Shown piece after piece: positions 14,542-34,195 of a DNA stretch of 45,554 nt. A program made the position numbers and the translations under genes. Location of the stretch: the IMG/VR virus record IMGVR_UViG_3300021418_000001, positions 1 through 45,554 of that record; one strand, 5' to 3'. The notes under the pieces are model-generated. The model had not been told where the DNA came from and searched no databases. It saw only the letters and a list, made by a program, of their open reading frames with translations. The stretch comes from a virus. Positions within the stretch are counted from its first letter, which is position 1, and every line of letters starts with the position of its first letter.

Positions 14542-15175
14542 GAGGATGTTCCCTTAGGCTGGCAACCATCGACACAAATTCCCTCTTCGCTTCCAGTGCC
14601 AGTTTGAAATGCGATGAAGGCAATGGGTAATTTTTCCAATCTTCCCCGAACAAATGAGTCCAATATGACTGGAACGAGAGGATGTCTCCCAGCATATTGC
14701 TAACGCTGCGCTGCCATTGCTCCACTGCAGTGTTGCAATCGGTGCATGGTTCTTGATAGGGAAATATTTCCTCTTCTTCTCTTTCTTCAATTTTCGTTTG
14801 GAGATTGTTTTTATTATTGCGAGCTATTTTTCGTGCTTCTTCTACAGTTAGCGATGGTGTTTCATCAACAATTTTAAATCTGTCAGGATGAGCTATGAGA
14901 GACTGAGCTATTCCAAACGAAATATTTCGACGTCGAAAAGATTCTGGCCAAGCTCTGGCAACTGCTCTTCTGATTTGGAGAGTTGTGACAGACATGCCAA
15001 TTTCATTGGCAAATTTATGAAGTGTTCGCTCTCCGTATTTTGGCTCTAAACGATTTGCAAGATCGCCAAGCTGCCATTGTTTATCAGAGATATCGAGCAT
15101 AATTTTTTTGGCCTCTACGACCGCTTCATCATAAGGCACTATGTAGTTTTCAAGTGGTTTCATAAGCTGCAGCAT
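14534..15175 (-). CDS. HTH/ParB-like DNA-binding protein, 213 aa
   Basis: The N-terminal half has WQLGDLANRLEPKYGERTLH followed by KFANEIGMSVTTLQIRRAVA. The second segment reads as a helix-turn-helix with a typical turn (GMSVTT), similar to ParB-type or phage regulatory proteins. The next segment (ISFGIAQSLIAHPDRF, SLTVEEARKIARNN) fits the helices that follow the HTH in that group. A CxxC (PCTDCNTA) lies near residue 143. GAGG lies 5 bases before ATG 15175. Likely transcription or replication regulator; inferred. Confidence 0.7.
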   Translation of the reverse strand: MLQLMKPLENYIVPYDEAVVEAKKIMLDISDKQWQLGDLANRLEPKYGERTLHKFANEIGMSVTTLQIRRAVARAWPESFRRRNISFGIAQSLIAHPDRFKIVDETPSLTVEEARKIARNNKNNLQTKIEEREEEEIFPYQEPCTDCNTAVEQWQRSVSNMLGDILSFQSYWTHLFGEDWKNYPLPSSHFKLALEAKREFVSMVASLREHPHE

Positions 15176-15184
15176 GGCATCCTC

Positions 15185-15466
15185 TCATTTCTTTGTTTCT
15201 TCCAAGTTCTTGATCCGCCTGATTGCGGCTTGGCGATGTTCGAGTGATACGAGGTCACGCGAGGCTTGTTGCTTATCCATTTGTTCTTTGCGTTGGAAGG
15301 CCTTTCGTTCCTCACGCCTGGCGTCTGCTACTTCTCGTCTGGCTCTCATTTCGATTTTCAGCTTAATTTGATTATCGACATAATCATCAAGTGGCAGACC
15401 TGCTTTTGCAGCTTTCATCTGCATTTTTTTAAGGCGTCCTATCTGGCAATTTGTCTTATCACTCAT
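15185..15466 (-). CDS. Highly charged coiled-coil protein, 93 aa
   Basis: The sequence is almost all charged and alanine residues (KIEMRARREVADARREERKA), with long predicted helices, consistent with a coiled coil. Its start follows a 17-codon micro-frame. No family recognised. Possibly binds nucleic acid or another small operon protein. Confidence 0.6.
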   Translation of the reverse strand: MSDKTNCQIGRLKKMQMKAAKAGLPLDDYVDNQIKLKIEMRARREVADARREERKAFQRKEQMDKQQASRDLVSLEHRQAAIRRIKNLEETKK

Positions 15467-15792: not shown

Positions 15793-16101
15793 TCAATCGA
15801 CGTCATAGTCATTGAGGTATCGAGGCGGCGTATTCCTCATGCCTCTGGGCTGGAACCCTCTGTGCTGTTCGCCTCGCCCCTCTCCAAAATCACTCATTCC
15901 CCTTCGGGTGTGATTTTGTCGAGTAAGGGGCTCGCCATGCCATCGACGCGGTCCACCGTGGTAGCGTGGCGGATGCGGCCTTGCATAATATGGCTCGTAG
16001 GGAGCCTCTGGGCCCAAACGGAACCCGAACGATGGCTGGGCTGTTGCCGGAACTGAGGACATCAGTCCAAGCAGGACGATTGCTGGAATTTGGTATTTCA
16101 T
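15793..16101 (-). CDS. Exported basic proline/arginine-rich protein, 102 aa
   Basis: ATG 16101 starts a clear signal peptide (MKYQIPAIVLLGLMSSVPAT, then AQ), which favours it over a longer frame to 16194. The mature part is rich in proline, arginine, histidine and tyrosine (EPYYARPHPPRYHGGPRRWH). It has no regular hydrophobic core, so it is probably extended and cationic in the periplasm. It overlaps the 36-aa membrane gene in an ATGA. Similar proline/arginine-rich exported proteins occur in Rhizobiales, so host origin is possible. Confidence 0.7.
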   Translation of the reverse strand: MKYQIPAIVLLGLMSSVPATAQPSFGFRLGPEAPYEPYYARPHPPRYHGGPRRWHGEPLTRQNHTRRGMSDFGEGRGEQHRGFQPRGMRNTPPRYLNDYDVD

Positions 16102-16208
16102 GGCCAAGACCCCACTGGACTTACCATCCACGTGATAATCATGATTGGGGTTGCCCATAAAATGGTGAATACTATTGCTCCCCATATGGAGCATGGATCG
16201 TTAATCAT
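16098..16208 (-). CDS. Single-helix membrane microprotein, 36 aa
   Basis: AGGT lies just upstream of ATG 16208, which overlaps the preceding stop by 8 bases. Its own stop overlaps the ATG of the next gene (ATGA). The product has one hydrophobic helix (IWGAIVFTILWATPIMIITW) flanked by short polar ends. Found by junction reading. Role unknown. Confidence 0.65.
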   Translation of the reverse strand: MINDPCSIWGAIVFTILWATPIMIITWMVSPVGSWP

Positions 16209-17644: not shown

Positions 17645-17737
17645 ATGACAAGTGAGGCGAAACAGGCCCTCGAGCTGTTGCTCGTAATCTGGCCGTTGGT
17701 GCTGACGATTCTGGCACTGACGATGTGTTCGGCATAA
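17645..17737 (+). CDS. Single-helix membrane microprotein, 30 aa
   Basis: GGAG lies 10 bases before ATG 17645. After a polar start (MTSEAKQAL) comes one hydrophobic helix (LLLVIWPLVLTILALTMC). Its TAA overlaps the next ATG (TAATG). Part of the wider set of tiny membrane proteins in this genome. Confidence 0.55.
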   Translation: MTSEAKQALELLLVIWPLVLTILALTMCSA

Positions 17738-20301: not shown

Positions 20302-20763
20302 ATGCCGACTAGTGCTGCACAATACAGAGCGAAAGTCGCCAACGGCAAGAAGGGCGGCCGTCCTCGCATCCTTCCTGAAGGTGAAAGGCGTCCTCCTGGA
20401 GTCAAGCCAGGCTTCATGTACAAAGAGAACGTGACGCTTAAGCAGAAGGCCCTCAAATACTCGGAGGAGGCTCTGCGGACGCTCGTGTGGCTCATGCGCT
20501 ATTCCGAGAATCCTACCGTCAAGCTGGCAGCTACTGACAAGATTCTCGACCGTGCTCATGGCCGTGTGCCGCTGTCGCTTGAACATGACGGTAAAGGAGG
20601 TGGAGCAATTACGCTCCTGGTTGTCACCGGGGTTCCAGAGCCGGACGAACCTGACGTTCCAATCGAGCACGACGAGCTGGAGTTTCAGCGGGGCACACTG
20701 TCACGCTCACCAGAACTTCCAGATATGGCACAAGGCAGTCTTTCATTGGAGGAGATCGAATGA
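20302..20763 (+). CDS. Putative terminase small subunit, 153 aa
   Basis: A basic N-terminus with GGRPRILPEGERRPPGVK precedes the helical core ALRTLVWLMRYSENPTVKLA, then ATDKILDRAHGRVPLSLEHD. This is the pattern of small phage DNA-packaging proteins (AA..ILDRAyGkp). The C-terminal 50 residues are acidic and proline-rich. It lies about 550 bases upstream of the large terminase, separated only by four small genes. Its role would be recognition of concatemeric DNA before cutting. Function is inferred from pattern and position. Confidence 0.65.
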   Translation: MPTSAAQYRAKVANGKKGGRPRILPEGERRPPGVKPGFMYKENVTLKQKALKYSEEALRTLVWLMRYSENPTVKLAATDKILDRAHGRVPLSLEHDGKGGGAITLLVVTGVPEPDEPDVPIEHDELEFQRGTLSRSPELPDMAQGSLSLEEIE

Positions 20764-20999
20764 GACCTGAATCCAAAGAGCAGTTGCGAGAAGAGCTGCT
20801 TGTTCTTCTGGACAAGCTGAGACTTATATTCCTGGACTGGGATTGGGAAATCGATGGTATCAAGAACGATATTGAGACTCTATCCGAAGCACAGGACAAG
20901 ATATGGTGTGACGTGGAGGCTCTCAAGAACCCTGATGGAGACATAGCGAGGGCAATGGCACATGATGGAGAGGATACAGCTGTCACACACGATGAGTGA
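20760..20999 (+). CDS. Small acidic coiled-coil protein, 79 aa
   Basis: Begins in an ATGA overlap. Predicted long helices with heptad-like leucines (QLREELLVLLDKLRLIFLDW, IKNDIETLSEAQDKIWCDVE) and an acidic tail. No family recognised. It overlaps the next membrane microprotein by 8 bases. Confidence 0.65.
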   Translation: MRPESKEQLREELLVLLDKLRLIFLDWDWEIDGIKNDIETLSEAQDKIWCDVEALKNPDGDIARAMAHDGEDTAVTHDE

Positions 21000-21087
21000 C
21001 ACTCTAGTGTCAGTGTTCCTGATGGACAGTCCTGCTCTGGTGGGAGCTTGTGTGTTCGTACTGTTGTGGGGCAGATATGTACGATGA
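20992..21087 (+). CDS. Single-helix membrane microprotein, 31 aa
   Basis: ATG 20992 lies inside the end of the previous gene, in another frame. One hydrophobic helix (SPALVGACVFVLLWGRYVR) follows a short polar start (MSDTLVSVFLMD). It overlaps the next microprotein by 11 bases. Confidence 0.6.
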   Translation: MSDTLVSVFLMDSPALVGACVFVLLWGRYVR

Positions 21088-21145
21088 GCCACTGTACTGG
21101 TTCTTGCTGCTTGTGGCACTGATAGTGTTCATAAACAGTACATGA
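21077..21145 (+). CDS. Single-helix membrane microprotein, 22 aa
   Basis: GGGG lies 6 bases before ATG 21077, inside the preceding microgene. The product is an acidic start (MYDEP) plus one helix (LYWFLLLVALIVFIN) and a polar end. Its TGA lies just before GGAGG of the next gene. Confidence 0.55.
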   Translation: MYDEPLYWFLLLVALIVFINST

Positions 21146-21158
21146 GGAGGAGATGGTC

Positions 21159-21341
21159 ATGTGGAAGACGAAGTGTGTTCATATTCATACCGATCTGACG
21201 GATTTGGATCTCAAACGCAAGATCGATCAGCACTGCATTGATGGCTGGGAGCCATGGTCTGCAACAAGTGGCGGAAACACATGGATCGTGCTGTTCAAGC
21301 GGAGGGAATACCCAGGAATTGAGCCAACCGATAGTACTTGA
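21159..21341 (+). CDS. DUF4177/DUF1737-like small protein, 60 aa
   Basis: GGAGG is 8 bases before ATG 21159, favouring it over ATG 21153. The pattern is strand (WKTKCVHIHTDL), helix (LDLKRKIDQHCIDGWEPW) and strand (GNTWIVLFKRRE), with the conserved GWE turn of the small alpha-beta family DUF4177. Function unknown. It overlaps the terminase start by 23 bases. The 50-aa protein at 11698 has the same shape. Confidence 0.65.
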   Translation: MWKTKCVHIHTDLTDLDLKRKIDQHCIDGWEPWSATSGGNTWIVLFKRREYPGIEPTDST

Positions 21342-22638
21342 TTACACTCCACGCCCGCAGTTCATCCCGTTCCACAAGAGACGGCAACGCTGGTCCTGCA
21401 TGATCTGTCACCGCCGTGCCGGCAAGACTACGGCATGTCTGATGGACATGCTGCGCAGCGCCACGAAGATCTCAGGAGGAAGATTTGCTTATATCGCACC
21501 CCTTCGAAATCAGGCTAAGACAGTCGCTTGGGACATGCTCAAGGGATTTGCCCGTCCGGTACTTAAAGGCGGACCAAACGAGGCGGAACTACGTGTTGAC
21601 CTTCTCAACGGAAGCAGGATTACGCTGTTCGGAGCTGATAATCCTGACGCCCTCAGAGGCCAGGCATTTGATGGAGTCGTGCTCGACGAATACGCAGATA
21701 TGCCGCCTTCCCTTTTCTCCGTCATTATTCGTCCGGCGCTTACCGACCGACGTGGCTTCTGTGTCGTTGTCGGAACTGTGAAAGGACGTAACCAGCTCTG
21801 GCAGACTTATGAGGTAGCAAAGAGCGATCCTCAAAATTGGCACACAGCCTACCTGAGAGCCTCGGAAACACACCTCATTGACGAACAGGAACTGTCAGAT
21901 GCACGAAGACAAATGGCGCCAGAGCAGTACGATTCCGAATTTGAGTGTGACCCCTATGCCGCCATCCTCGGAGCCTACTACGGCAAGGATATGTCGGACG
22001 CCGAACGGGAATGTCGTGTTGGTATCGTGCCATACCAGTCCGGTGTTCCCGTCCATACTGCCTGGGATCTTGGAATGGGTGATTCAACAGCCATCTGGTG
22101 CTGGCAACCAGTAGGGAAGGAAATCCATGTCATCGATTATTACGAGAGCCATGGCAACCGTCTTGCTCACTATGTTTCTGAGCTTGGAACGCGCAGCTAT
22201 GCTTGGGGTACGGATTTTGTACCGCATGATGCGCACGTCCGAGAGCTCGACACAGGAAAGACACGTGTCGAGACGCTGGCGGCGCTTGGTAGAAAGCCTC
22301 ACACGATACCGCAGCACAAGGTGATCGACGGAATCAACGCCGCACGGCTGATATTTCCGAACTGCTGGTTTGACGAGGTGCGCTGCAAGGATGGCCTCGA
22401 GGCTCTGCGCCAGTACCGTACCGAATACGACGAGAAGCTCAGAGTGTTCAAGGAGACGCCCAAGCACGACTGGGCCAGCCACCCGGCAGATGCGTTCCGC
22501 TACATGGCCATGGCCTACCGTGAGATGAGAGCCGAGGAACCCAGGCCTGAACCGCAGGGGATATTCATTCCTCTGGAGGATATGGATTACGACGAGTACG
22601 AGAAATACGGCAGAGGCAGCAAAAAGGAGCGGGCATGA
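21319..22638 (+). CDS. Terminase large subunit, 439 aa
   Basis: Motor and nuclease that packages DNA into the procapsid. The start is TTG 21319 (MSQPIVLDYTPRPQFIPFHK), matching the usual N-terminus of this family; the frame is open further upstream, but that part is antisense-like. Walker A is HRRAGKT (residues 31-37). Walker B ends VVLDEYADM (Asp123-Glu124). The coupling motif VVVGTVKGRNQLWQTY follows. The nuclease domain begins TAWDLGMGDSTAIW (Asp250), with a second acidic site near VPHDAHVRELDTG. Length is normal. It is most similar in style to P22/Sf6-type podoviral terminases, implying headful packaging; that inference fits the circular assembly. Confidence 0.93.
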   Translation: MSQPIVLDYTPRPQFIPFHKRRQRWSCMICHRRAGKTTACLMDMLRSATKISGGRFAYIAPLRNQAKTVAWDMLKGFARPVLKGGPNEAELRVDLLNGSRITLFGADNPDALRGQAFDGVVLDEYADMPPSLFSVIIRPALTDRRGFCVVVGTVKGRNQLWQTYEVAKSDPQNWHTAYLRASETHLIDEQELSDARRQMAPEQYDSEFECDPYAAILGAYYGKDMSDAERECRVGIVPYQSGVPVHTAWDLGMGDSTAIWCWQPVGKEIHVIDYYESHGNRLAHYVSELGTRSYAWGTDFVPHDAHVRELDTGKTRVETLAALGRKPHTIPQHKVIDGINAARLIFPNCWFDEVRCKDGLEALRQYRTEYDEKLRVFKETPKHDWASHPADAFRYMAMAYREMRAEEPRPEPQGIFIPLEDMDYDEYEKYGRGSKKERA

Positions 22639-22820
22639 CTGTGGCAGAACGGGAAGAGAAGATTCAATTCGTTACGAAGCGGCTTGAGGAAGCAGCAAGG
22701 GATTGCAATGACCTGGTGAAGACTCGTCCTGATGTATGGTGGCGGACTGATTTTCTTCGGCAGCTGGCTTGTGCTGCAATCCTGGCTGTCATGGATTTTG
22801 AGAACAAGGAGCGGGTATGA
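22635..22820 (+). CDS. Small protein, 61 aa
   Basis: Starts in an ATGA overlap with the terminase. A charged N-terminal helix (VAEREEKIQFVTKRLEEAAR) and a more hydrophobic helix (FLRQLACAAILAVMDFENKE) are visible. No family recognised. ATGA overlap downstream as well. Confidence 0.65.
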   Translation: MTVAEREEKIQFVTKRLEEAARDCNDLVKTRPDVWWRTDFLRQLACAAILAVMDFENKERV

Positions 22821-23023
22821 AGTGGCAGCCAGTTGGAACAGTACTAAACTGTGATAAATATGTGCTGATATGTACGGCAGCAAATCAGATTCATGTGGCA
22901 TTCTTTGATAAGGATGTCGGGAGATGGCAACCAGAGTTCTTCGAGGGGAATTCAGACGATCTTCCACGAGACGTAACGCACTGGATGCCGCTTCCTGATC
23001 CTCCAGAGAAGGAATCGAAGTGA
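22817..23023 (+). CDS. DUF551-type small protein, 68 aa
   Basis: The pattern KWQPVGTVLNCDKYVLICTA at the start and THWMPLPDPPEKE at the end is that of DUF551. These short phage and bacterial proteins have a WxP start and an HWMPLP.PP ending; their function is unknown. ATGA overlaps join it to both neighbours. Confidence 0.8.
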   Translation: MKWQPVGTVLNCDKYVLICTAANQIHVAFFDKDVGRWQPEFFEGNSDDLPRDVTHWMPLPDPPEKESK

Positions 23024-23115
23024 TCATAGGCCATGACCTGATATTCTACGCAGCGATTTGTTCGGTAATCGCGCTTGTCATATTTTTCATATCAGGGAAT
23101 GGCCCGAATGACTGA
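23020..23115 (+). CDS. Single-helix membrane microprotein, 31 aa
   Basis: GTG 23020 lies in a GTGA overlap with the DUF551 gene. One hydrophobic helix (LIFYAAICSVIALVIFFISG) with a short polar end (NGPND). First of four tiny membrane genes before the portal. Confidence 0.65.
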   Translation: MIIGHDLIFYAAICSVIALVIFFISGNGPND

Positions 23116-23185
23116 CGCCCATGCCATAGCCATCGTGTTCGGGTTCATGATGACCCTGTTTCTTCTCGCGGCAACACATAAATAG
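23108..23185 (+). CDS. Single-helix membrane microprotein, 25 aa
   Basis: Overlaps the previous gene by 8 bases. GGGA lies 9 bases before ATG 23108; ATG 23099 is an in-frame alternative. One helix (AIAIVFGFMMTLFLLAAT) with a lysine end. Confidence 0.55.
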   Translation: MTDAHAIAIVFGFMMTLFLLAATHK

Positions 23186-23188
23186 GCC

Positions 23189-23314
23189 ATGAAATACTCC
23201 GAATGGACATGGTACGAGATTGCAATCGGCATTGCCCTATCCATTTGGATTTTCTACGTCTTGTGGTACCGTCCTGAACTTTCACCATGCGTTGATGCGG
23301 CAAGTTGCGCGTGA
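23189..23314 (+). CDS. Single-helix membrane microprotein, 41 aa
   Basis: Starts 3 bases after the previous stop. A tryptophan-rich helix (WYEIAIGIALSIWIFYVLWY) is followed by a polar tail with two cysteines (SPCVDAASCA) that could be disulfide-bonded outside the membrane. GTGA overlap with the next gene. Confidence 0.6.
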   Translation: MKYSEWTWYEIAIGIALSIWIFYVLWYRPELSPCVDAASCA

Positions 23315-23331
23315 TCAGGAAGGCGGCAGGG

Positions 23332-23844
23332 GTGAGCAACGTGGACAATAGGAATGGCGGCAGCACGCCACGTCCTGACCCGACAATTCTCACGACGACA
23401 CAGCTGCTCAGGGAGGTTGATGCCCTGCGTACTCTTGTACGAGGCTGGGTGGATGCGCTCCAGGTTCTGATGGAATCTCAAATCAAAGGGGCGGTCGAGA
23501 ATATCGTAACCAGGCTTAATGGTAACGACACAGCCTTGGTCGCTGCCCTGCAGGCCCAGAAAGAAGCTGCTGCCAAGCAGACCGAGAACTTCACGGCCAT
23601 CCTGAACGAGAGCAAGCTGGGCGTCGCCAAACAGGTCGATGCCATGAACGAGAAGATCGATGACCTCAAGGAGCGCTTGTCAGAGCAGGGAGGTAAATCA
23701 TCAGGAATAAGCTCTACTGTGACAATGGTAATAGCGATCACTGCTGCCATGGCTTCGGTCATCGCTGTCGTATTGAGCTTTTCAAGGGAGACTCCGGTGG
23801 TCAGAAGCCTGACATCAATGGCTTCCTACCTGTTCAATCAATGA
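23332..23844 (+). CDS. Coiled-coil protein with C-terminal membrane anchor, 170 aa
   Basis: GTG 23332 has GGAAGG 9 bases upstream; GTG 23311 in a GTGA overlap is an alternative adding seven residues. Residues about 30-125 form a long helix (LLREVDALRTLVRGWVDALQ, VDAMNEKIDDLKERLSEQGG). One transmembrane segment follows (VTMVIAITAAMASVIAVVLS) and a short tail. This shape, a soluble coiled coil anchored by a C-terminal helix, resembles phage membrane proteins of unknown role placed near terminase and portal. A spanin- or docking-type role is only a possibility. Confidence 0.65.
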   Translation: MSNVDNRNGGSTPRPDPTILTTTQLLREVDALRTLVRGWVDALQVLMESQIKGAVENIVTRLNGNDTALVAALQAQKEAAAKQTENFTAILNESKLGVAKQVDAMNEKIDDLKERLSEQGGKSSGISSTVTMVIAITAAMASVIAVVLSFSRETPVVRSLTSMASYLFNQ

Positions 23845-23933
23845 CTTTGGCAATTCAGACAGCCATGATATTGTTCGCGGTCCTTGTGGCAATGCTTGTG
23901 CCTCTTATCATCACATATGTGCAGCTCCAATGA
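23841..23933 (+). CDS. Single-helix membrane microprotein, 30 aa
   Basis: ATGA overlaps on both sides, the second with the portal gene. The product is nearly all one helix (TAMILFAVLVAMLVPLIITY) with short polar ends (MTLAIQ and VQLQ). Confidence 0.65.
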   Translation: MTLAIQTAMILFAVLVAMLVPLIITYVQLQ

Positions 23934-26395
23934 AGACCACCGTCCAGAAATGGCTCGACCGCCTCGAACAGGCCGAAAAAGCCAAAGGCATGGAGGAATG
24001 GAACCAGCGGTGCAAGGTCATCAAGAGAAAGTATCTGTATGAAGGCTCGCAAAGCGTCCGCACGCGCAAATACCAGCTCCTCTGGTCGAACCAGGAGCAG
24101 CTCAGGAGTGCGATCTATTCCAAATCCCCAAAAGGCGTCGTCAACCGCCGCTACTACGACCCTGACCCCGTGGCAAGAACGGCTAGCCAGATTCTTGAGC
24201 GATCCATTAATTTTTCCCTCGATACTGGAGATTACCACACGACCTTCAAGCGGGTACGTGACGATTTCCTTCTCTACGGGAGGGGAATTGCCCGCGTCTA
24301 CTACGAGCCGACCTACAACACGTCGAACGACGAAACGGAAGACATAGCCAATGCAGAAAATGTCCCGGGAGACAAAGCTGAGGGTGATGGACATTCTGTT
24401 GAAGTCGGCAGCGGGGGAGGGTCTGAGTACTCAGGAAGTCCAGGACCTGCAGCGGGAGCGCGACTGCTTGGCAATAGACCAGATGACGATCACATCGGAG
24501 CCCAGCCAGACCTCGAGTTCGAAAACGTCAGAATCAGATTTGTTCACAGGCAGGACTTCCTCCACGAGCCTTCCAGAATCTGGGAGGAAGTAGGCTGGGT
24601 CGCCTTCCGGGCGTTCATGACGAAGAAGGAGCTTGCCAAGCGGTTCAAGGATGCTGGAGAGGATGTCATTGAACAGCTCCAACCAGGCAATGAAAGGGAT
24701 GAAGCGTCGTCGGAAGATTCAGCGGAGTATTCAGACAGGGAGCTTTCTGACGAGAAGGTGGCCATCTGGGAATGCTGGGACAAGAAGGAGAACAAGGTTT
24801 GCTGGATCGCCAAGGGGTGCAGTGATGTGCTGGAAGAGGGGCCGGCTTATCTTGAACTTGACGGATTTTTCCCTTGTCCAGCTCCGGCGTTCGGAACGCT
24901 TACGAATGACAGTCTTATCCCGGTCCCAGACTATGTATTTTACCAGGATCAGGCTGACGAGATTGATCAGCTCACTGCTCGTATCGGGGCTCTTGGCGAT
25001 GCGCTGAAGCTTGTCGGGTTCTATCCAGGTGGCCCGTCAGGAGAAGGCACTCCTGAGATCGAGCGGGCGTTCACGTCTGGGTTCGAGAACCGCATGATCG
25101 CCGTCCAGTCCTGGGCGGCATTCAAGGATTCAGGGGGCGGCTCTGCGCCGGTCATTTTCCTGCCTGTCGATCAGGTCGCCAAGATCATCGAGGCATGCGT
25201 CAAGCTCCGTCAGCAAATTGTTGAAGACGTCTACCAGATTGTCGGCATCTCTGACATTATGCGGGGAGCAACGGATCCAAACGAGACGGCGCAAGCGCAA
25301 CAGATGAAGGCGCAGTTCGGTGGCGTGCGCATGAGAGACAGGCAGGCAGAACTCGCTCGTTTTTGCGCTGATGTCTGCAAGCTCACTGGCCAGATCATTG
25401 CGGTTCATTGCTCTTCCCAGACAATTCAGAAGATGACCAATATCGACCTGCCGTCAAAGGCGCAGATCCAGCAGATCATCATGCAGCAGATGATGCAATA
25501 CCGCCAGCAGATAGCGCCGATGGTGCAGCAGTACCAGCAGCAGGTGACGTCAGCTCAGCAGAACCAGGGCCAGCAGCAGCAAGGTCAGCCCCAGATTAAC
25601 AGCAACCAGCCGCCACAGCCAGGTGCTGGCATCCCAGCTCCTCCACAAATTCCGCCTCCTCCACAGTTCAAGCCGCCTCCGACAGAGGAGGATGTGTTCG
25701 GTCTGCTGAAGGATAACGTCCTGCGCCTGTTCAGGATAGATGTCGAGGCTGAAAGCACGGTATCTGCAGATGAATCCAAGGAGAAACAGGATCGTACCAG
25801 CCTTATTGAAGCGGCTACGAAGTTCATGCAGGGCTGGGGCCCGATGGTCCAGCAGCAGCCAATGCTCGCACCGCTTGCCGGGAAGCTGCTGGAGTTCGGC
25901 GTACGTGCGTTCCGTGTCGGCCGCGAACTTGAAGAGATCATCGAAGAGACTGTCGAGAAGTTCAATGATCAGGCCCAGCAGGGCGGCGCTCAGAAGCCTG
26001 ATCCGAAGGCTCAGGCGGAAATGATCAAGCTCCAGGGCTTGCAGGTAAAGGCGGCTGCAGAAATCCAGAAGGCGCAGATTGAAGCTCAGAAGGCGCAGTT
26101 CGACGCTCAGGCCAAGATGATGCAGATTCAGGCCAAAGCTCAGGCCGACGAGCGCAAGACCATGATGGACGTCCAGAAGAGCCAGACCGACCATCAGAAC
26201 AAGGTTGTGCAGATCGGTGCCCAGGCTCTTGCGGATCATCACGCACGCCAGCATGAGGTTGGAATGCAGCAGGCCCAGGCTGGCCACCAGGCAGCTCTCG
26301 ACCATCACGCAAGAGCACATCAGGCATCGATTGATGAGCAGCAGTCGAAGCAGCAAATGAAGCAGCAGGCAGCTCAGGGGGACGACAATGGCTAG
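23930..26395 (+). CDS. Portal protein, 821 aa
   Basis: The dodecameric ring through which DNA enters and leaves the head. The N-terminus (WLDRLEQAEKAKGMEEWNQR, then YLYEGSQSVRTRKYQLLWSN) and the central core (VGISDIMRGATDPNETAQAQ) match the large podoviral P22/BPP-1-type portals. An acidic, glycine-rich insert lies near residues 130-185. The C-terminal third is glutamine/alanine-rich: QQ runs near 540-570, a proline-rich loop (PAPPQIPPPPQFKPPP), then a very long helix of KAQ/QAQ repeats ending in histidine-rich HHARQHE segments. That fits the barrel of P22-type portals. Starts in an ATGA overlap. A 295-codon antisense frame over its end is a composition artefact. Confidence 0.9.
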   Translation: MKTTVQKWLDRLEQAEKAKGMEEWNQRCKVIKRKYLYEGSQSVRTRKYQLLWSNQEQLRSAIYSKSPKGVVNRRYYDPDPVARTASQILERSINFSLDTGDYHTTFKRVRDDFLLYGRGIARVYYEPTYNTSNDETEDIANAENVPGDKAEGDGHSVEVGSGGGSEYSGSPGPAAGARLLGNRPDDDHIGAQPDLEFENVRIRFVHRQDFLHEPSRIWEEVGWVAFRAFMTKKELAKRFKDAGEDVIEQLQPGNERDEASSEDSAEYSDRELSDEKVAIWECWDKKENKVCWIAKGCSDVLEEGPAYLELDGFFPCPAPAFGTLTNDSLIPVPDYVFYQDQADEIDQLTARIGALGDALKLVGFYPGGPSGEGTPEIERAFTSGFENRMIAVQSWAAFKDSGGGSAPVIFLPVDQVAKIIEACVKLRQQIVEDVYQIVGISDIMRGATDPNETAQAQQMKAQFGGVRMRDRQAELARFCADVCKLTGQIIAVHCSSQTIQKMTNIDLPSKAQIQQIIMQQMMQYRQQIAPMVQQYQQQVTSAQQNQGQQQQGQPQINSNQPPQPGAGIPAPPQIPPPPQFKPPPTEEDVFGLLKDNVLRLFRIDVEAESTVSADESKEKQDRTSLIEAATKFMQGWGPMVQQQPMLAPLAGKLLEFGVRAFRVGRELEEIIEETVEKFNDQAQQGGAQKPDPKAQAEMIKLQGLQVKAAAEIQKAQIEAQKAQFDAQAKMMQIQAKAQADERKTMMDVQKSQTDHQNKVVQIGAQALADHHARQHEVGMQQAQAGHQAALDHHARAHQASIDEQQSKQQMKQQAAQGDDNG

Positions 26396-26792
26396 TGGAC
26401 CTACGCTCGCAAGCGCATTGGCCGGCACGCAAGCCAATCTGGCTGCACAGCCACAATTGCCAAGACCAACGTCTCAGCCATATCCTGGAGCGATACCATT
26501 GTGGGGCAATTATCAGCCAGGAATGTCAATTGGGGCGATGGCACCGGCCAGCACACCGTATCAGGCACCTGCCTTGACGTCTCAGCCGCACCCTGGTGCC
26601 ACTCCGATGATGGGTGGTAGCTACAATCCTGGTCTGGATGCTGCGTTGAACAGTACAATGGCGAATATTGCTGCTCAGCCAGTGATTCCAAGACCGACAT
26701 CCCAGCCAATTCCTGGTGGTTCTGCCCCGATGCTTGGAAATTATCAGCCATCTTCCGGGCTTGGAGGTCTGTTCGGAATGAACAATCCATGA
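26388..26792 (+). CDS. Low-complexity proline/glutamine protein with three internal repeats, 134 aa
   Basis: The protein is built from three imperfect units around PRPTSQPYPGAIPLWGNYQP, the second reading LTSQPHPGATPMMGGSYNPG and the third PRPTSQPIPGGSAPMLGNYQ. Alanine/asparagine-rich helices (GTQANLAAQP, NSTMANIAAQP) link them. It starts 8 bases inside the portal gene. Disordered, repeat-bearing proteins at this position could bind the portal or scaffold. Function inferred from position only. Confidence 0.65.
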   Translation: MASGPTLASALAGTQANLAAQPQLPRPTSQPYPGAIPLWGNYQPGMSIGAMAPASTPYQAPALTSQPHPGATPMMGGSYNPGLDAALNSTMANIAAQPVIPRPTSQPIPGGSAPMLGNYQPSSGLGGLFGMNNP

Positions 26793-26869
26793 AAATCGCC
26801 TTCGTGGCTACAGCATTGATATGGCTGGCAATCACGCTGGCCGTCATCTGGTGGATCGAGCATGACTGA
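26789..26869 (+). CDS. Single-helix membrane microprotein, 26 aa
   Basis: ATGA overlap with the repeat protein and an 8-base overlap with the next gene. One helix (IAFVATALIWLAITLAVIWW) with an acidic end (IEHD). Confidence 0.65.
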   Translation: MKIAFVATALIWLAITLAVIWWIEHD

Positions 26870-27038
26870 GATTACAATAGCCAATCTGCTGTTCGGTGGA
26901 TTTGCAATGTTGACTCCTTCCGGAATCTCCAATCCTTACAGCTTGGCCAGCATGGAGCCGGCTGTTTTTCATTGGACGCCAGGATATGGCGATTTCCCTG
27001 GTGCGATGTGGAAATCGTATGTGGTGCTGCCACGATGA
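26862..27038 (+). CDS. Small protein, 58 aa
   Basis: Overlaps both neighbours (8 bases, then ATGA). The sequence (ITIANLLFGGFAMLTPSGIS, EPAVFHWTPGYGDFPGAMWK) has a moderately hydrophobic first third and an aromatic second half. No family recognised. Confidence 0.6.
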   Translation: MTEITIANLLFGGFAMLTPSGISNPYSLASMEPAVFHWTPGYGDFPGAMWKSYVVLPR

Positions 27039-29494
27039 CAGACTGGCTGCGCTACTCGATCATTCCGACGTTGATGATTCTCCTGTTCGGGATTTTCATC
27101 ATGGTGCTCACGGCCAGAGCCTGCATCATAGGCGCTCCCTCAGGTGGCCAGGCTCCCGTGATCGACAGCAACAAGATCAGCCATGTCGTTATCGTGATGG
27201 AGGAGAATCAGGCCTACAGCTCTGTCTATCCTCAGCCGTCTCTTCCGTATTTCAACAGTCTTGCAAACACTGGTGGTCTTGCGACGTTCTACTATGGCAA
27301 TGTCCATCCTTCGATGGGCAATTATTTCTGGCTGACGGCAGGCCAGCTGATCAGCAGCAGTGATGCCTACGATCCAGGTGCTGGCGGCAACACATCAGAC
27401 AACGTCGTCCGCCGTCTTCTTCTCAACGGCAAGACCTGGAAGGAATATTGTGAGAATCGCCCCTCAGTCGGGTATATCGGTAACGATGTCTACCCATTCA
27501 TCCAGCATCACTGCCCGCTTGGATACTTTTCGGATGTTCGCGGGAGTGGTGCCCAGCTCAACAATCTTGTTGGTTTCCCACAATTCACGACCGACCTCAA
27601 CGCTAACAATCTACCATCCTATTCCTTCATCGCCCCAAACCAGCTCAACAATGCCCACGATGGCTCATTGGCAACTGCCGACGCCTGGCTGACCACCAAC
27701 ATCAAGCCGCTAGTTGACAACCAGCTCGTGATGCAGAACACGATCCTCATGGTCCTGTTCGACGAGTCCGTCTCTGGCGATACGGTCAATGGTGGCGGTC
27801 ACATCTACTGGTCTGTGACCGGTCCTCAGGTGAACCCAGGCTACCAGTCGATCTTCAACTTCTATCCTCAGCAGAGCACGCTGCGGGAAGCTCTCGAAGC
27901 TCTCGGGATTCCGTTCAATGTAGGCGGGGCCGCTACAGCCCCCAGCATGGCCGAGTTCTTCAACAGCAATTTCGCGGCTACCGGTGCCGAGGGTGTGGCG
28001 TTCAACTACAAGATCACAGGTACGAACACCCCCACCAGCTTCAATGCCACGAGCCTTCCAGGTGGCCTCTCCGTCAATACTTCCAGCGGCCTGATCTCAG
28101 GCACTCCATCAGTAGGCTCGGCTGGCCTGTACAGCGTGCAGATGAGCGCCACCAACGGGTTTGGAACAGGTCTTCAGGCATTGGCTCTGACGATCGGTGG
28201 CGGCAGCCTGGCACCAGGATTCTATGTAGCCACCACCGGGAACGACTCGAATGCAGGCACGCTCAACTCGCCGTTCGCAACCCTCACACGTTGCCAGACA
28301 GCCATGCAGGCAAGCGGAACGAACAAGACCTGCTACGTCCGTAGCGGTTCATACACTCCTGCGGTTATCACCAATTGTGACGGAGGCTCGAACACATGCC
28401 TTCTGGACTTGCAGCATGCAGCAGATGGCGTCACATACCAGTACTATCCTCCTGACGGTTACAACAGTGCCAACATCACAGGTGGTTCCAACGCTGTCGG
28501 CAATGGTGCTTACACTTGCGTAGCAGTACATGCTCACAATGTCACATTCAACGGCATTCATATCCATAATTGCCAATACGCCATCTTTCGAACAACCGGT
28601 GGCTCGATTGATAGTCTTCTAGTAAGAAACAGCGAACTGGACAACACTTTCATAGGCCTTCAGGCATTCAGTTCTGGTGCTGTGTCCTGTTCCGGATGCA
28701 GTAACGCAATGGTATCCCACAATTACATTCACGACATGGGGACTACTGCCGTATCGTTCGCCAATGTGAACGGTACAGTTACCAATATGACTGTGGACGG
28801 AAATTACATTCAGACTACCTGCAAGGCCATTTCTGATTGTGGGGCTGTCTACCTAGTAGAACCTACTAATATGCAGACGTCGACAGGCACAAGATGGACC
28901 AACAATTACATCCGGGACGGTAATGTGACGGCTGGCGTGCACTCCAACTCGGGACAGGCGTTCTACACTGACGATTGCGTTTCTAACGTGGTAATCTCAG
29001 GTAACGTCATCACCGGCCGTAATGGCTCGAATACTATGAACGTCATCCATGGTGGCAAGAATGTCAGTATGGTAAACAACCTGGTTGACATCTCCACGTT
29101 CCAGGAGAAGATTGCTGCATTCCAGACTTCCAGCATCAACATCGTATGTCCTGATGCTTCCATGAGCGGCAACCAGATCGAGAACAACATCATCATCGGA
29201 AGCGGTCCAGGACTTGGCTATGCAGTTCTCAGCGGCACGCCTCCGAACATTCCTACCATCATCAATAACGACTATTTCCCGTACGTGGACGGCGCCATCA
29301 TCTCGACTGGGGCCTACTCCGACCAGAACCGCAGCGCTCAAGACCCTTTACTCACGAACTGGGAATACAACATAGGCGGAACCAGCGCCGTCCTGAGTTC
29401 GCCTGTGAGCTTCGAGGACATCTGTCGGACATGGGGACCGCCAGGATTTGTCGTACCGCATACAGGTACAGTGCCATCAAGTCCGCATCCATAG
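27035..29494 (+). CDS. Exported three-domain protein: phosphoesterase, Ig-like domain, parallel beta-helix, 819 aa
   Basis: ATG 27035 (ATGA overlap) starts an N-terminal signal or anchor helix (IIPTLMILLFGIFIMVLTAR). Residues about 49-310 match the phosphoesterase family of acid phosphatases and phospholipases C. They show VVIVMEENQAYSSVYPQ, VHPSMGNYFWLTAGQ, NNAHDGS (about 205), FDESVSG (about 242) and GGHIYW, which are the metal and active-site regions. Residues about 320-389 form a putative Ig/PIG domain (LPGGLSVNTSSGLISGTPS). From about 396, FYVATTGNDSNAGTLNSPFA opens a right-handed beta-helix with many NN/GN turns, as in polysaccharide lyases. It could act on phosphate esters and surface glycans. 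Fusion and export are unusual in a phage. Confidence 0.85.
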   Translation: MTDWLRYSIIPTLMILLFGIFIMVLTARACIIGAPSGGQAPVIDSNKISHVVIVMEENQAYSSVYPQPSLPYFNSLANTGGLATFYYGNVHPSMGNYFWLTAGQLISSSDAYDPGAGGNTSDNVVRRLLLNGKTWKEYCENRPSVGYIGNDVYPFIQHHCPLGYFSDVRGSGAQLNNLVGFPQFTTDLNANNLPSYSFIAPNQLNNAHDGSLATADAWLTTNIKPLVDNQLVMQNTILMVLFDESVSGDTVNGGGHIYWSVTGPQVNPGYQSIFNFYPQQSTLREALEALGIPFNVGGAATAPSMAEFFNSNFAATGAEGVAFNYKITGTNTPTSFNATSLPGGLSVNTSSGLISGTPSVGSAGLYSVQMSATNGFGTGLQALALTIGGGSLAPGFYVATTGNDSNAGTLNSPFATLTRCQTAMQASGTNKTCYVRSGSYTPAVITNCDGGSNTCLLDLQHAADGVTYQYYPPDGYNSANITGGSNAVGNGAYTCVAVHAHNVTFNGIHIHNCQYAIFRTTGGSIDSLLVRNSELDNTFIGLQAFSSGAVSCSGCSNAMVSHNYIHDMGTTAVSFANVNGTVTNMTVDGNYIQTTCKAISDCGAVYLVEPTNMQTSTGTRWTNNYIRDGNVTAGVHSNSGQAFYTDDCVSNVVISGNVITGRNGSNTMNVIHGGKNVSMVNNLVDISTFQEKIAAFQTSSINIVCPDASMSGNQIENNIIIGSGPGLGYAVLSGTPPNIPTIINNDYFPYVDGAIISTGAYSDQNRSAQDPLLTNWEYNIGGTSAVLSSPVSFEDICRTWGPPGFVVPHTGTVPSSPHP

Positions 29495-29502
29495 GAGGAA
29501 TC

Positions 29503-30600
29503 ATGAAGTCTGCACTTGCAGGAATAGCTCTCAGTGCCATCGCCAGCAGTGCAATGGCCTGTGGCGTTCCTGCGACATTCCCATGCCAGCCTGTCAGCTT
29601 CGATCCAACCGATCCTGCAGCTTCCGGCTACCGTATCGTGTTTGCCGACGACTTTCTGAACTCCTCGACCATTGATATGGCCGACAGTGGAGCTGCAGGA
29701 TTCCACTGGTACAGGCGCTGGTGGTTCCAGGCTGGTGCGCAGCCAGCCGGAGACATCGTGACAGGTGCCGGTGGACTCGTCCTCACTCCCAGTCTCAATG
29801 CCGGTCCAAACCTGGCATTGACCACGGCCGTCCGCATAGGCGGAGCCGGACAGCATTGGGCTGGGACGACGTTTGGCGGAGGCTACTATGCAGAGGTCAG
29901 CATGTCATTCGACGGACCTGCCATCGTAGCGGCAAATTTCCTTGGAAGTGATGGCCAGCCAGGATGGCCTGCGTTCTGGGCTGAAAGCATCAACTTTCTT
30001 GTTCCAGAACGTGCAGTTGATGCGCAGTGGCCGGGGCAGGTAGCCGGCTACACGCATTTTATCGAAGACGACATGTTCGAGTACGACAATACTGGAGACG
30101 TTACCCATAAATGGGGGTCCGGGATATGGGACTGGTCGGGCATTAGCGGTGCTTCATCGTGCTCCGGCTATACGACAAACGGGCCGAACCATTGTGGCAT
30201 TCTCAATCTTAACAATATCGGGACCAATCAAAACACGGCATTCCTGTGTGCGAGTGCTAGCTGCCCGACCATCACATGGAATGTTTCGACGTTCCACACA
30301 CTTGGACATCTCTGGGTAGCCGGAGATGCGAATAATGCCCAGACTGGGTTCATCCAGACGTTCTTCGATGGCAATGAAGCCAGGGCGAACAATGGTGCGC
30401 TCAGCAGCAAGACTACCTGGGTGAACGGAACCATGCCGGCTCCAGCCTCGCTACCCAACAGTCCGCGGGTCTGGAGCATTCATGACACGCCGCCAGGCGA
30501 AAAGGTGGCGGTGATTCTTGGGGCGGGTGCAGGGCAGGCGTTTCACATAAAGTTCGTCAGAATCTGGCAGATACCAGGTTGCGGACAGGTCTATCATTAA
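29503..30600 (+). CDS. Exported GH16-like glycoside hydrolase, 365 aa
   Basis: AGGAGGAATC precedes ATG 29503. Residues 1-20 form a signal peptide (MKSALAGIALSAIASSAMAC), possibly with a lipobox-like end. The body has the ConA-type beta-jelly-roll pattern of GH16: YRIVFADDFLN, GGYYAEVSMSF, GWPAFWAESINF and then EDDMFEY. The last gives Glu188, Asp190 and Glu193 in the GH16 catalytic spacing ExDxxE. A later HTLGHLWVAGD and HIKFVRIWQI fit the closing strands. It probably cleaves beta-glycans of the host surface or exopolysaccharide. It lies 8 bases after the phosphoesterase fusion, in one operon. The family assignment rests on the motif, so it is moderately sure. Confidence 0.78.
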   Translation: MKSALAGIALSAIASSAMACGVPATFPCQPVSFDPTDPAASGYRIVFADDFLNSSTIDMADSGAAGFHWYRRWWFQAGAQPAGDIVTGAGGLVLTPSLNAGPNLALTTAVRIGGAGQHWAGTTFGGGYYAEVSMSFDGPAIVAANFLGSDGQPGWPAFWAESINFLVPERAVDAQWPGQVAGYTHFIEDDMFEYDNTGDVTHKWGSGIWDWSGISGASSCSGYTTNGPNHCGILNLNNIGTNQNTAFLCASASCPTITWNVSTFHTLGHLWVAGDANNAQTGFIQTFFDGNEARANNGALSSKTTWVNGTMPAPASLPNSPRVWSIHDTPPGEKVAVILGAGAGQAFHIKFVRIWQIPGCGQVYH

Positions 30601-30611
30601 GAGGAAAGCAT

Positions 30612-30809
30612 ATGCGTGAGCTTACAGAAGAAGAAGTCGACATGGTATCTGGTGCTCGCTGGCACCATTATCAGGCAAGACCTGTAGCTGCTCAGGCAGC
30701 GTACCCGACTCAGAGAATCGATCCGTCTATTACGGACCCTTATGTGATAGCATATATCGAATTCCATGCCCTCAGAACGGATGGGCTCTCGTCATCATTG
30801 GTGGCTTGA
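30612..30809 (+). CDS. Peptide with double-glycine-type leader, 65 aa
   Basis: GAGGAAAG lies just before ATG 30612. The start MRELTEEEVDMVSGA matches the leader of class II bacteriocins and microcins, which are cut after GG/GA by a C39 peptidase ABC exporter (consensus M-R-E-L-x-x-E-E-(I/V)-x-x-V-S-G-G/A). The mature 50 residues (RWHHYQARPVAAQAAYPTQR and on) are polar and aromatic with no cysteine. No exporter, peptidase or immunity gene was seen nearby, so processing would depend on the host. It directly follows two exported enzymes. Confidence 0.65.
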   Translation: MRELTEEEVDMVSGARWHHYQARPVAAQAAYPTQRIDPSITDPYVIAYIEFHALRTDGLSSSLVA

Positions 30810-30904: not shown

Positions 30905-31044
30905 TGGCGGCTGCCGCTCATACCAAAGGCGGGTATGGTGGCGTACCTCAGAAGGTCGGGAAGGAATTCAACCAGGCCGACAAGGGCGGCAAGTTGCTCA
31001 GCAAAGCCGCTCACAAGCCACACAAGGCTGGGAGAGGGAAATGA
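30871..31044 (+). CDS. Conserved small phage protein (KVGKEF type), 57 aa
   Basis: AAGGA lies 6 bases before ATG 30871, favouring this start over a longer frame. The pattern MPSKTQSQARLMAAAAHTKG, then VPQKVGKEFNQADKGGK is widespread in phages as a short basic protein of unknown role. ATGA overlap downstream. Confidence 0.8.
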   Translation: MPSKTQSQARLMAAAAHTKGGYGGVPQKVGKEFNQADKGGKLLSKAAHKPHKAGRGK

Positions 31045-31274
31045 TCGGTACGCTCATAGGAATCGTTTTTGCTCTCATAATCCTTGGTGTCGTGTGGTGG
31101 GCAGCTCAGACGCTCATGGGTCTTCTTCCAATAGCTGAGCCATTCAAGACGATTATCTATGTGGTCATGGTCGTGATCCTGGTCATGATTGTTCTGTGGG
31201 TACTATGGACGCTCCTGCAGATGTCAGGGGTGATGTCCATGGGTGGCAGCCTGCCGACACTTGGCCACAGGTGA
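31041..31274 (+). CDS. Two-helix membrane protein, holin-like, 77 aa
   Basis: Two strongly hydrophobic segments, residues about 3-22 (TLIGIVFALIILGVVWWAAQ) and 38-60 (TIIYVVMVVILVMIVLWVLW), are joined by a short loop (LPIAEPFK). This kind of small membrane protein with a conserved PIAEPFKTII loop is common next to head genes in podoviruses and is often called a putative holin. The lysis cassette at 9.3-10.6 kb has its own holin, so the role here is open. Confidence 0.7.
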   Translation: MIGTLIGIVFALIILGVVWWAAQTLMGLLPIAEPFKTIIYVVMVVILVMIVLWVLWTLLQMSGVMSMGGSLPTLGHR

Positions 31275-31399
31275 TCGCTGATTTCGGGGTTGCAGGAATC
31301 ACAATTGCTGCGTTCATGCTTGGCATGATCGTTGGCGCAATCCTTGGGATTCGCGTATTCCTGTGGGCGATCAGCGAGTTCACGACGGTGGAGAAATAG
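31271..31399 (+). CDS. Single-helix membrane protein, 42 aa (or 64 aa from 31205)
   Basis: GTG 31271 overlaps the preceding stop (GTGA), as in neighbouring genes. ATG 31205 gives a longer form overlapping the membrane gene by 70 bases. The product has one helix (AGITIAAFMLGMIVGAILGI) and a polar end (SEFTTVEK). Its stop touches the next ATG. Confidence 0.55.
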   Translation: MIADFGVAGITIAAFMLGMIVGAILGIRVFLWAISEFTTVEK

Positions 31400-33193: not shown

Positions 33194-34195
33194 ATGGCAT
33201 CCCCCCTTTCATTTACAGTCGACTGGGGTGACCTCGTCACCACCACGATGGAAGACCGCCAGCGTACGCTCGCTGACAACCTTTCCAACAACAATGCATT
33301 TCTCGCCTTCTTGAAAAGACGCGGCAACAGCACGTCCTACACGGGCGGTCGCGAAATTATGGAAGAGCTGGCATATGCCCAGAATCAGACATTTCTCTGG
33401 TATAGCGGCTATGAGCCTCTGAATATTGCCCTCAATGATACGATGACTGCCGCACGCTTCCCAGTGAAGCAGGCTGCAATTGCCGTCGTTATCTCCGGGC
33501 TAGAGCAGATCCAGAACTCTGGACGTGCCGAGGCCATGAACCTCGTGATGCAGCGCCAGAAGATCGCAGAGATGACTTTCTGGAACGCCATGAGTTCAGG
33601 CGTCTACTCGGACGGTACGGCATTTGGCGGCAAGCAGATTGGCGGCCTTGCGCTGCTGGTCTCGAAGGCGCCGCTCACAGGCATCGTCGGCGGCATTGAT
33701 GCTGCAGCCAATGTCTGGTGGAGAAACGTCGCATTCGACCAGACGGTCGACGCGCTCAGCACTGTCTCAGCCACGAACATCCAGGCCTACTTCAACAAGA
33801 TCACGCTTGGCCTGAAGAGGAATTCGGACGGTATCGATCTGATCGTGGCCGACACGAACTTCTATGCCTTCTATCTGGCTTCTCTCCAGACCATTCAGCG
33901 CATCACCAGCGAAGGCGGTTCAAGCGTCGGAGCAGGCTTCACGGCTCTCAAGTACTATGGAGCCGGTAAGGAAGTTGATGTGATCCTGGACGGCGGCAAG
34001 GGTGGACAGATTCCAGTCAACACCGCGTATTTCCTCAACACTGAATACTTCAACTACAGGCCATCCAAGTCCCGCAACTTCACGGTGATCGGCGGCGAGC
34101 GAGCCAATGTGAACCAGGATGCGGTGGTCAAGCTGATGGCTTGGGCAGGCAATATCACGATCTGCAACAGGTCCCTTCAAGGAGTGCTCTTCTGA
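33194..34195 (+). CDS. Major capsid protein, 333 aa
   Basis: Main shell protein, with an HK97-type fold expected. The sequence (VDWGDLVTTTMEDRQRTLAD, then GGREIMEELAYAQNQTFLWY) matches a capsid family seen in podoviruses of proteobacteria. In this family an N-terminal arm is followed by GYEPLNIA, a TFWNAMSSGVYSDGT region and VWWRN. The C-terminal part contains GQIPVNTAYFLNTEYFNYRP. It follows the scaffold by 22 bases and precedes a decoration-type gene in a TGATG junction. Length is normal for the family. Confidence 0.87.
   Translation: MASPLSFTVDWGDLVTTTMEDRQRTLADNLSNNNAFLAFLKRRGNSTSYTGGREIMEELAYAQNQTFLWYSGYEPLNIALNDTMTAARFPVKQAAIAVVISGLEQIQNSGRAEAMNLVMQRQKIAEMTFWNAMSSGVYSDGTAFGGKQIGGLALLVSKAPLTGIVGGIDAAANVWWRNVAFDQTVDALSTVSATNIQAYFNKITLGLKRNSDGIDLIVADTNFYAFYLASLQTIQRITSEGGSSVGAGFTALKYYGAGKEVDVILDGGKGGQIPVNTAYFLNTEYFNYRPSKSRNFTVIGGERANVNQDAVVKLMAWAGNITICNRSLQGVLF

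Follow-up and report, generated by a model that had tools for sequence, protein, structure and literature searches.

Several phages are known to produce more than one small membrane protein with holin-like character. Several dispersed holins have been proven in phage P1 (PMC9025707), and multi-TM lysis cassettes are present in Gordonia phages (PMC9671378) and in the mycobacteriophages Girr and NormanBulbieJr (PMC13056207). A holin-like pair composed of a two-TMD and a one-TMD protein has also been shown genetically in mycobacteriophages (PMC13056207). A preliminary description of the viral DNA studied here, a stretch of 45,554 nucleotides that we call the window, reported many single-helix microprotein frames at the junctions of structural genes and knew of no phage system built this way. 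That statement is too strong, as several small holin-like genes, whether dispersed or side by side, have been described (PMC9025707, PMC9671378, PMC13056207).

The features that bear on the comparison are as follows, wherein single-helix (TM) frames were called by hydropathy.

9352–9765, minus strand: holin, Phage_holin_10 (Pam3 gp28 family), E 3.6e-11, above cut-off
9762–10604, minus strand: endolysin candidate with a Phage_lysozyme2 domain (E 1.5e-20) and a C-terminal hydrophobic stretch
16098–16208, minus strand: TM microORF, 36 aa, its stop overlapping the ATG of the following gene (16101)
17645–17737, plus strand: TM microORF, 30 aa, with GGAG at spacing 10
20992–21087, plus strand: TM microORF, 31 aa, between gene 20760–20999 and TerL
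21077–21145, plus strand: TM microORF, 22 aa, overlapping the preceding microORF
21337–22638, plus strand: TerL (terminase large subunit), by homology and synteny with TerL of relatives
23020–23115, plus strand: TM microORF 1 of the TerL-portal cassette, 31 aa, GTG start
23108–23185, plus strand: TM microORF 2, 25 aa from the ATG at 23108
23189–23314, plus strand: TM microORF 3, 41 aa, positional counterpart of TM25 in L002, L003 and L004
23311–23844, plus strand: predicted coiled-coil protein, 177 aa, with a C-terminal TM helix; homologues in L002, L003, L004 and L118
23841–23933, plus strand: TM microORF 4, 30 aa, zero charged residues, positional counterpart of TM33 in L002, L003 and L004
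23930–26395, plus strand: portal protein, whose start lacks a Shine-Dalgarno sequence and overlaps the stop of microORF 4
26789–26869, plus strand: TM microORF, 26 aa, ATGA overlap with 26388–26792
31041–31274, plus strand: two-helix membrane protein, 77 aa, found in 47 phage loci and under purifying selection
31271–31399, plus strand: TM microORF TM42, 42 aa, GTG start, GTGA overlap, homologue in L003
39466–39534, plus strand: TM microORF, 22 aa, ATGA overlap with tail gene 38732–39469
43067–43165, plus strand: weak TM frame, 32 aa, below threshold, between 42105–43070 and a large ORF from 43156

These coordinates partly confirm what had been observed earlier. All eleven plus-strand starts are exact, and the frame given as 16098 on the minus strand runs from 16208 to 16098. 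The strong helix attributed to each frame is present in ten plus-strand frames and in the minus-strand frame, but frame 43067 falls just under the hydropathy threshold and 18301 has no convincing helix. Junction overlaps are as claimed: exact 4-nt ATGA or GTGA overlaps occur at 23020, 23841, 26789, 31271, 39466 and 43067, short out-of-frame overlaps occur at 20992, 21077 and 23108, and frame 23189 begins 3 nt past a stop. The microproteins were correctly judged to differ in sequence rather than to be copies of one duplicated gene. The four frames said to lie in a row before the portal are, however, three (23020–23314), followed by the coiled-coil gene and only then by the fourth. Within this cassette, microORF 1 has the Shine-Dalgarno sequence AAGGA and a GTGA overlap with gene 22817–23023, microORF 2 has longer forms from 23099 or 23075 and an 8-nt out-of-frame overlap with microORF 1, and microORF 4 has an ATGA overlap with both of its neighbors. 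The conserved two-helix gene directly 5′ of 31271 had been overlooked. A sequencing error at the right end of the window was considered and set aside; the large ORF from 43156 simply continues past the end of the window.

We counted frames of 18 to 60 codons with a strong helix (Kyte-Doolittle 17-residue mean of 1.8) in the gaps of the late operon and compared them with 400 dinucleotide shuffles of those gaps. The window holds 10 such frames in the sense direction against an expected 0.65 ± 0.77 (shuffle maximum of 4) and none in antisense. Three phages whose TerL is ~70% identical to that of the window (L002, L003 and L004) hold 10 against 0.87 expected, with one in antisense. Thus, the helices are placed at junctions beyond chance, as had been proposed. 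Across 57 loci the count is 15 against 2.9 expected, with 6 in antisense, which is only a rough sign of enrichment in the wider family because automatic greedy gene calling buries the frames of the window under spurious long ORFs. Synonymous codon use is intermediate between coding and non-coding: pooled frame 0 lies above the base-composition null and below long genes, and is no better than frame +2. Judged by their sequences, the frames are probably for the most part real genes for very small proteins that would be expressed late, translated in infected cells and located in the inner membrane.

The best-placed frames are supported as genes by purifying selection in relatives. L001 is the same phage (99.99%) and is therefore useless for selection tests. 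Among L002, L003 and L004, TM25, which precedes the coiled-coil gene, has a pN/pS of 0.18 to 0.31, and TM33, which precedes the portal, has values of 0.27 to 0.52 among relatives. The coiled-coil protein gives 0.15 (L003/L004), the two-helix protein 0.41 to 0.45, and TM42 0.60. Microproteins of the relatives occupy the same junctions as window frames 23189, 23841 and 31271, and these positions are shared despite diverged sequences. Frame 23189 resembles the MKPWTK family (TM25) of each of the three relatives (shuffle p of 0.0015 to 0.012), frame 23841 has weak similarity to their TM33 (p of about 0.04), and TM42 has its L003 homologue in the same place (15139–15288). At 26789, L003 has a TM microORF at the matching place (14514), with sequence similarity that is not significant (p of 0.066). 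Homologues were searched for, and none was detected, for 17645, 20992, 21077, 23020, 23108, 39466 and 43067. By the preliminary description's own criterion, related phages that keep the junctions but lose the hydrophobic frames would speak against it. Such loss is seen at 39466 and, outside this small clade, between TerL and portal; within the clade the frames persist at 23189, 23841 and 31271. Gene callers drop frames this short, though here they are fifteen-fold above chance and, where testable, selected.

The TerL-portal cassette is a changeable accessory confined to one small clade. It occurs in none of 35 other loci, and in 17 of these TerL and portal abut, and thus it is an accessory insertion rather than a packaging platform. 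Phages with abutting TerL and portal include L084, L093–L095, L108–L112, L114, ppBjS10J-1 and RHph_I3_18. Scans for further members of the cassette (TM25, TM33 and the coiled-coil protein) returned only the same contigs and L118, in which other genes come after the coiled-coil gene. The 38732/39789 junction lacks a TM frame, or is closed altogether, in about 60 other loci. Searches of isolate phages by tblastn gave no match to the coiled-coil or two-helix protein and only distant portals for the portal. The AlphaFold model of the coiled-coil protein is all-helical but of low confidence (pLDDT 45). Similarities of this protein to tape measure, spanin or holin PHROGs (E of 0.0003 to 0.03) look like generic coiled-coil similarity and were set aside.

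In all four phages (window, L002, L003 and L004) the portal start has no Shine-Dalgarno sequence, and the overlap between the microgene stop and the portal start is 4, 19, 1 and 19 nt, respectively. Because of these two properties, translation of the portal is likely to be coupled to the microgene. A promoter and terminator inside the chain are unlikely, since stops and starts overlap. With the cassette lying ahead of a portal gene that has no Shine-Dalgarno sequence, it seems that essential genes may become tied to accessory ones in translation.

What these proteins do can be proposed only tentatively. The account we consider most likely, with confidence somewhat short of even, is that very small coupled membrane-protein genes with fast turnover serve as accessory holin- or antiholin-like lysis tuners. 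Such genes would enter and leave the late operon singly, at gene junctions, and would be read by translational coupling through ATGA, GTGA or TAATG overlaps, so that promoters of their own would not be needed. The cassette is one such insertion, in which two TM microproteins flank the coiled-coil protein with its C-terminal membrane helix, and the stop of the second overlaps the portal start; the two-helix protein and TM42 (31041–31399) are a second group. The microproteins would then tune lysis beside the main holin/lysozyme pair (9352–10604, minus strand). Tuning of membrane permeabilization and lysis time in a holin- or antiholin-like manner, taken alone, is a more doubtful proposition.

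Small size with one to three TM helices, as in holins, is seen by hydropathy, and in G009, G010, G013, G015 and G017 the two-helix family has a gene for an endolysin, lysozyme or holin at a distance of 0.4 to 3 kb. This co-location, an indirect link to lysis, was noticed after the fact, and markers were present in just 5 of 14 other phages. The two-helix family is often downstream of tail-fiber genes, and in L243 two chained TM microORFs come after a two-helix gene. The holin/lysozyme pair of the window is on the opposite strand, 13 to 20 kb away from the two-helix gene and the cassette, neither of which has an endolysin as neighbor. The frames, at 22 to 43 aa, are shorter than described holins. 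No microprotein matched a holin family, or any other family significantly, in PHROGs, Pfam or NCBIfam; only the 9352–9765 protein fits one.

Small membrane proteins that act in superinfection exclusion or host takeover are known in phage biology. Our main rival explanation, which we regard as unlikely yet serious, is that the microproteins keep the DNA of a second phage from entering or interfere with a membrane protein of the host. Their single-helix size, quick turnover between close relatives and separate accessory insertions would fit an arms race, but genes placed in the structural operon would come late for exclusion, and searches of PHROGs, Pfam and NCBIfam matched none of the known exclusion or moron families.

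A reading of lower probability is that the seven frames without detected homologues are partly chance or decaying sequences, and that the conserved frames alone are genes. Intermediate codon choice would agree with this, but the excess of 10 over 0.65 with zero in antisense does not, nor does the good Shine-Dalgarno sequence and exact GTGA overlap of 23020. Slightly less probable still is that the frames are coupling spacers, wherein translation feeds ribosomes to the next start, such as that of the portal, and the peptide is incidental. The portal starts of the clade and the exact 4-nt overlaps that start six frames would fit this idea, but purifying selection acts on the amino acid sequence, and a spacer does not require the hydrophobicity that occurs 15-fold above expectation. 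Moreover, a spacer is unnecessary because the TerL end abuts the portal start in phages without the cassette.

It is improbable that these are peptides resembling type I toxins that act on the host membrane with no dedicated partner; small size, Trp-rich helices and the lack of a family suit such peptides, but chained coupled genes are unlike a type I layout. The membrane platform suggested earlier, whether for packaging DNA or for assembling heads or tails, has very little probability. Although the microprotein genes lie next to those for TerL, the portal, heads and tails, relatives whose TerL, portal and capsid are homologous lack them and package without them, and the microproteins differ in number and sequence between clade phages. 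The earlier interpretation is partly supported.

A more far-reaching reading, which we consider improbable as a whole, is that a clade related to alphaproteobacterial prophages carries a modular set of coupled microproteins of 22 to 43 residues around its structural genes. Here the tail-anchored coiled-coil protein and its two flanking microproteins in the TerL-portal junction would act together as a single complex in the membrane, setting lysis time or shutting out other phages, and portal synthesis would be coupled to this complex. As a small and testable model, the clade could show how membrane proteins are acquired by phages junction by junction while the translation of essential genes stays intact.

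Among the closest described systems are the actinobacteriophage cassettes, which also hold several small one- or two-helix TM genes that are poorly conserved and singly gained or lost (PMC9671378, PMC13056207). Those genes, however, adjoin the endolysin, and the tested two-TMD protein has 88 aa, whereas the shorter frames of the window lie at TerL-portal and other structural junctions, with the endolysin elsewhere. P1 LydA, LydC and LydD likewise represent more than one holin-like membrane protein from unlinked operons with gene overlaps (PMC9025707), but they have two helices, 84 to 93 aa (LydD, LydC) and a proven function, whereas that of the microproteins is only proposed.

The small two-helix Thivi_2564 family (NCBIfam NF041949) is comparable to the 31041 protein only, single-helix frames being excluded. 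This protein and its L003 homologue span nearly the whole 51-position model, but their scores of 18.2 and 20.1 bits are below the cut-off of 33, and 31041 is therefore not a member by the cut-off rule.

Phage morons classically have their own promoter and terminator. Like morons, the microprotein genes are inserted among conserved structural genes, and at the same junction some relatives have them and others do not, but they are coupled by stop-start overlap. Finally, catalogs of microbial small proteins (for example, PMC11364881) show that unannotated proteins of such short length, often membrane proteins, are a common class. Those catalogs are lists, whereas the chained arrangement in the window is a specific one that belongs to a single phage clade.

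All of the single-helix membrane frames (microORFs, named by start coordinate) that a preliminary description placed at gene junctions are present in the window, the minus-strand one running 16208..16098 with its stop overlapping the next ATG. A census of the late region on the plus strand covered its 12 gaps, based on a hand-made gene list and allowing ≤30 nt of overlap with neighbors; transmembrane (TM) frames were those of 18 to 60 codons with a 17-residue mean hydropathy ≥1.8. By this measure, 10 of 31 sense frames qualify versus 0 of 23 antisense frames and a mean of 0.65 (maximum 4) in 400 dinucleotide shuffles of the gaps, and a stricter threshold of 2.2 leaves six observed versus 0.17 expected. 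The earlier view that chance would not yield so many junction helices is thus borne out, and its list stands for the 10 plus-strand frames passing 1.8, whereas 43067 falls slightly under threshold and 18301 is unconvincing.

Recurrence of the first bases at 45427, which gives a direct terminal repeat of ~128 bases (1-128 and 45427-45554; first 20 bases exact), makes it probable that the record represents a complete, closed genome of ~45.4 kb. Its landmarks, including the cassette of TM microORFs and a coiled-coil gene between TerL and portal, are as follows.

9352-9765, minus: holin (Phage_holin_10)
9762-10604, minus: Phage_lysozyme2 protein, adjoining the holin gene
21337-22638, plus: TerL
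22635-22820 and 22817-23023: two genes, not membrane proteins; good Shine-Dalgarno, ATGA
23020: microORF, GTGA overlap
23108: microORF, 8-nt overlap
23189: microORF between 23108 and the coiled-coil gene
23311 (start): 177-aa coiled-coil protein with C-terminal helix, GTGA
23841: microORF after the coiled-coil gene, ATGA overlap
23930-26395, plus: portal, ATGA overlap with the 23841 frame
33194-34195: major capsid protein (PHROG major head protein match)
38732-39469 and others: tail genes

The C-terminal half of the minus-strand lysozyme-domain protein (9762-10604) carries a long hydrophobic stretch atypical of a soluble endolysin, and a second Phage_lysozyme2 domain (43576-43971) lies within a large ORF from 43156 that extends past the window end. 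An HNH endonuclease (36020-36502) is inserted amid the tail genes. Cargo between portal and the 31041 gene (26972-30600), missing in the related phage L003, includes an 840-aa protein with phosphoesterase and Ig-like domains and a ~365-aa protein of secreted appearance without a family; a 65-aa protein (30612-30809; N-terminal MRELTEEEVDMVSGARWHH) resembles a double-glycine-type leader peptide. Capsid relatives are prophages or phage contigs, chiefly of Alphaproteobacteria including Rhizobiales, and Bradyrhizobium and Rhizobium phages have portals that match that of the window at 38-39%; we infer a host within this group.

Three related phages (L002, L003 and L004), whose TerL shares 69-72% with that of the window, reproduce the pattern. 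Counted in the same way, their gaps contain 10 sense TM frames and one antisense frame, with shuffles giving 0.87 (at most 4 in 500), and the frames occupy junctions matching those of the window. Before the coiled-coil protein, MKPWTKLELIILAIWCVVLTWVLWK of L003 and two homologues (TM25) correspond to 23189 with fair similarity (shuffle p 0.0015-0.012); before the portal, MSPLIDRAVFVLVWVGIIAFLVLFPVLLTMVSP of L003 and its homologues in L004 and L002 (TM33) correspond to 23841 with weak similarity (p about 0.04); and after a two-helix protein, L003 frame 15139-15288 corresponds to the 42-aa frame 31271 (TM42) with a clear similarity reached by 0 of 2000 shuffles. The resemblance of frame 26789 to its counterpart is weak and not significant (p 0.066). 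The chain in L004 is built in the same style (TerL-ATGA-38 aa-TAATG-23-aa helix-ATGA-26-aa helix, and further on coiled-coil-ATGA-39-aa helix-portal). None of the four phages has a Shine-Dalgarno of >3 nt at its portal start, and in each this start overlaps the stop of the microgene (4, 19, 1 and 19 nt in the window, L002, L003 and L004, respectively). Translational coupling along the cassette would be the natural reading. The leftward arm of L003 (1221-1611, minus) also holds three chained small TM frames of 47, 29 and 60 aa whose ends overlap. At gene junctions of four alphaproteobacterial contigs carrying a related capsid (L158, L176, L178 and L183) there are small TM genes of 24-48 aa, of which one or two show conservation from locus to locus.

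Ratios of pN/pS from Nei-Gojobori counts, which gapped protein alignments bias toward low values, are 0.18-0.31 for TM25 among the three relatives (synonymous sites close to saturation), 0.27, 0.43 and 0.52 for TM33, 0.15 for the coiled-coil protein (L003/L004), 0.41-0.45 for the two-helix protein and 0.60 for TM42 (window/L003). For TM25 and TM33, comparing L003 with L004 requires no internal gap, so that these values are the safest (Fisher p 1.2e-9 and 0.002). Given these low ratios, the frames so compared are, on sequence evidence, genes. For seven frames (17645, 20992, 21077, 23020, 23108, 39466 and 43067), a search with the plus-strand frames through 2.7 Mb of related loci detected no homologue; codon usage at synonymous positions is intermediate between that of coding and non-coding sequence, and it is the group statistic that supports the putative status of these seven as genes.

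The cassette is narrowly distributed. Of 35 other loci in which TerL and portal could both be located, 17 have them abutting at <10 nt (L084, L093-L095, L108-L112, L114, ppBjS10J-1, RHph_I3_18 and others), no locus with a longer gap has a TM-frame chain, single TM-like frames appearing only in L091 and L092, and in more distant TerL relatives (52-61%) different, mainly non-membrane genes fill the spot. In ~60 other loci, the 38732/39789 junction among the tail genes either is closed or has no TM frame (threshold 1.9; 39466 itself scores 1.83), so 39466 is, as far as seen, private to the window. Hydrophobic frames at kept junctions are matched for 23189 and 23841 in L002, L003 and L004 and for 31271 in L003, whereas 39466 has no match at its junction and the cassette is absent from wider relatives; this narrow occurrence marks the cassette as an accessory insertion of one small clade rather than a very general feature.

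We propose that the microproteins are accessory, late-acting inner-membrane proteins that would tune permeabilization and lysis. The gene-level part of this proposal is well supported; the lysis-tuning part, our preferred reading, is tentative and less likely than not to hold. Its main, indirect hint is the neighborhood of the two-helix protein (31041-31274, 77 aa), which is conserved in 47 viral loci with the core GVxWWAxQQLLPLIPxxEPFxT, remotely resembles the Thivi_2564 family (score below the family cut-off) and is single copy in each of 17 records searched whole. A lysis marker (holin, lysozyme or endolysin) was found in 5 of 14 other phages, each ~0.4-3 kb from this gene, a co-location of limited weight because it was found after looking and with few markers. 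The gene often lies downstream of tail-fiber genes, and in locus L243 it is followed by two chained TM microORFs. The main rival is that the microproteins act in superinfection exclusion. The membrane platform for packaging suggested initially is unlikely, since homologous packaging and head modules occur in relatives without the cassette.

For lysis tuning by the microproteins, models would be phage P1, with its multiple dispersed holins (PMC9025707), and the F1 mycobacteriophages, in which efficient lysis requires a two-TMD and a one-TMD protein (PMC13056207). The initial impression that no such phage system had been described goes too far: phages are already known to have small membrane proteins, TM cassettes of several genes and turnover of single genes (PMC9671378). 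The microprotein families, which have no match in PHROG, Pfam or NCBIfam, their very small size, the TerL-portal site and the stop-start overlap chain are new.
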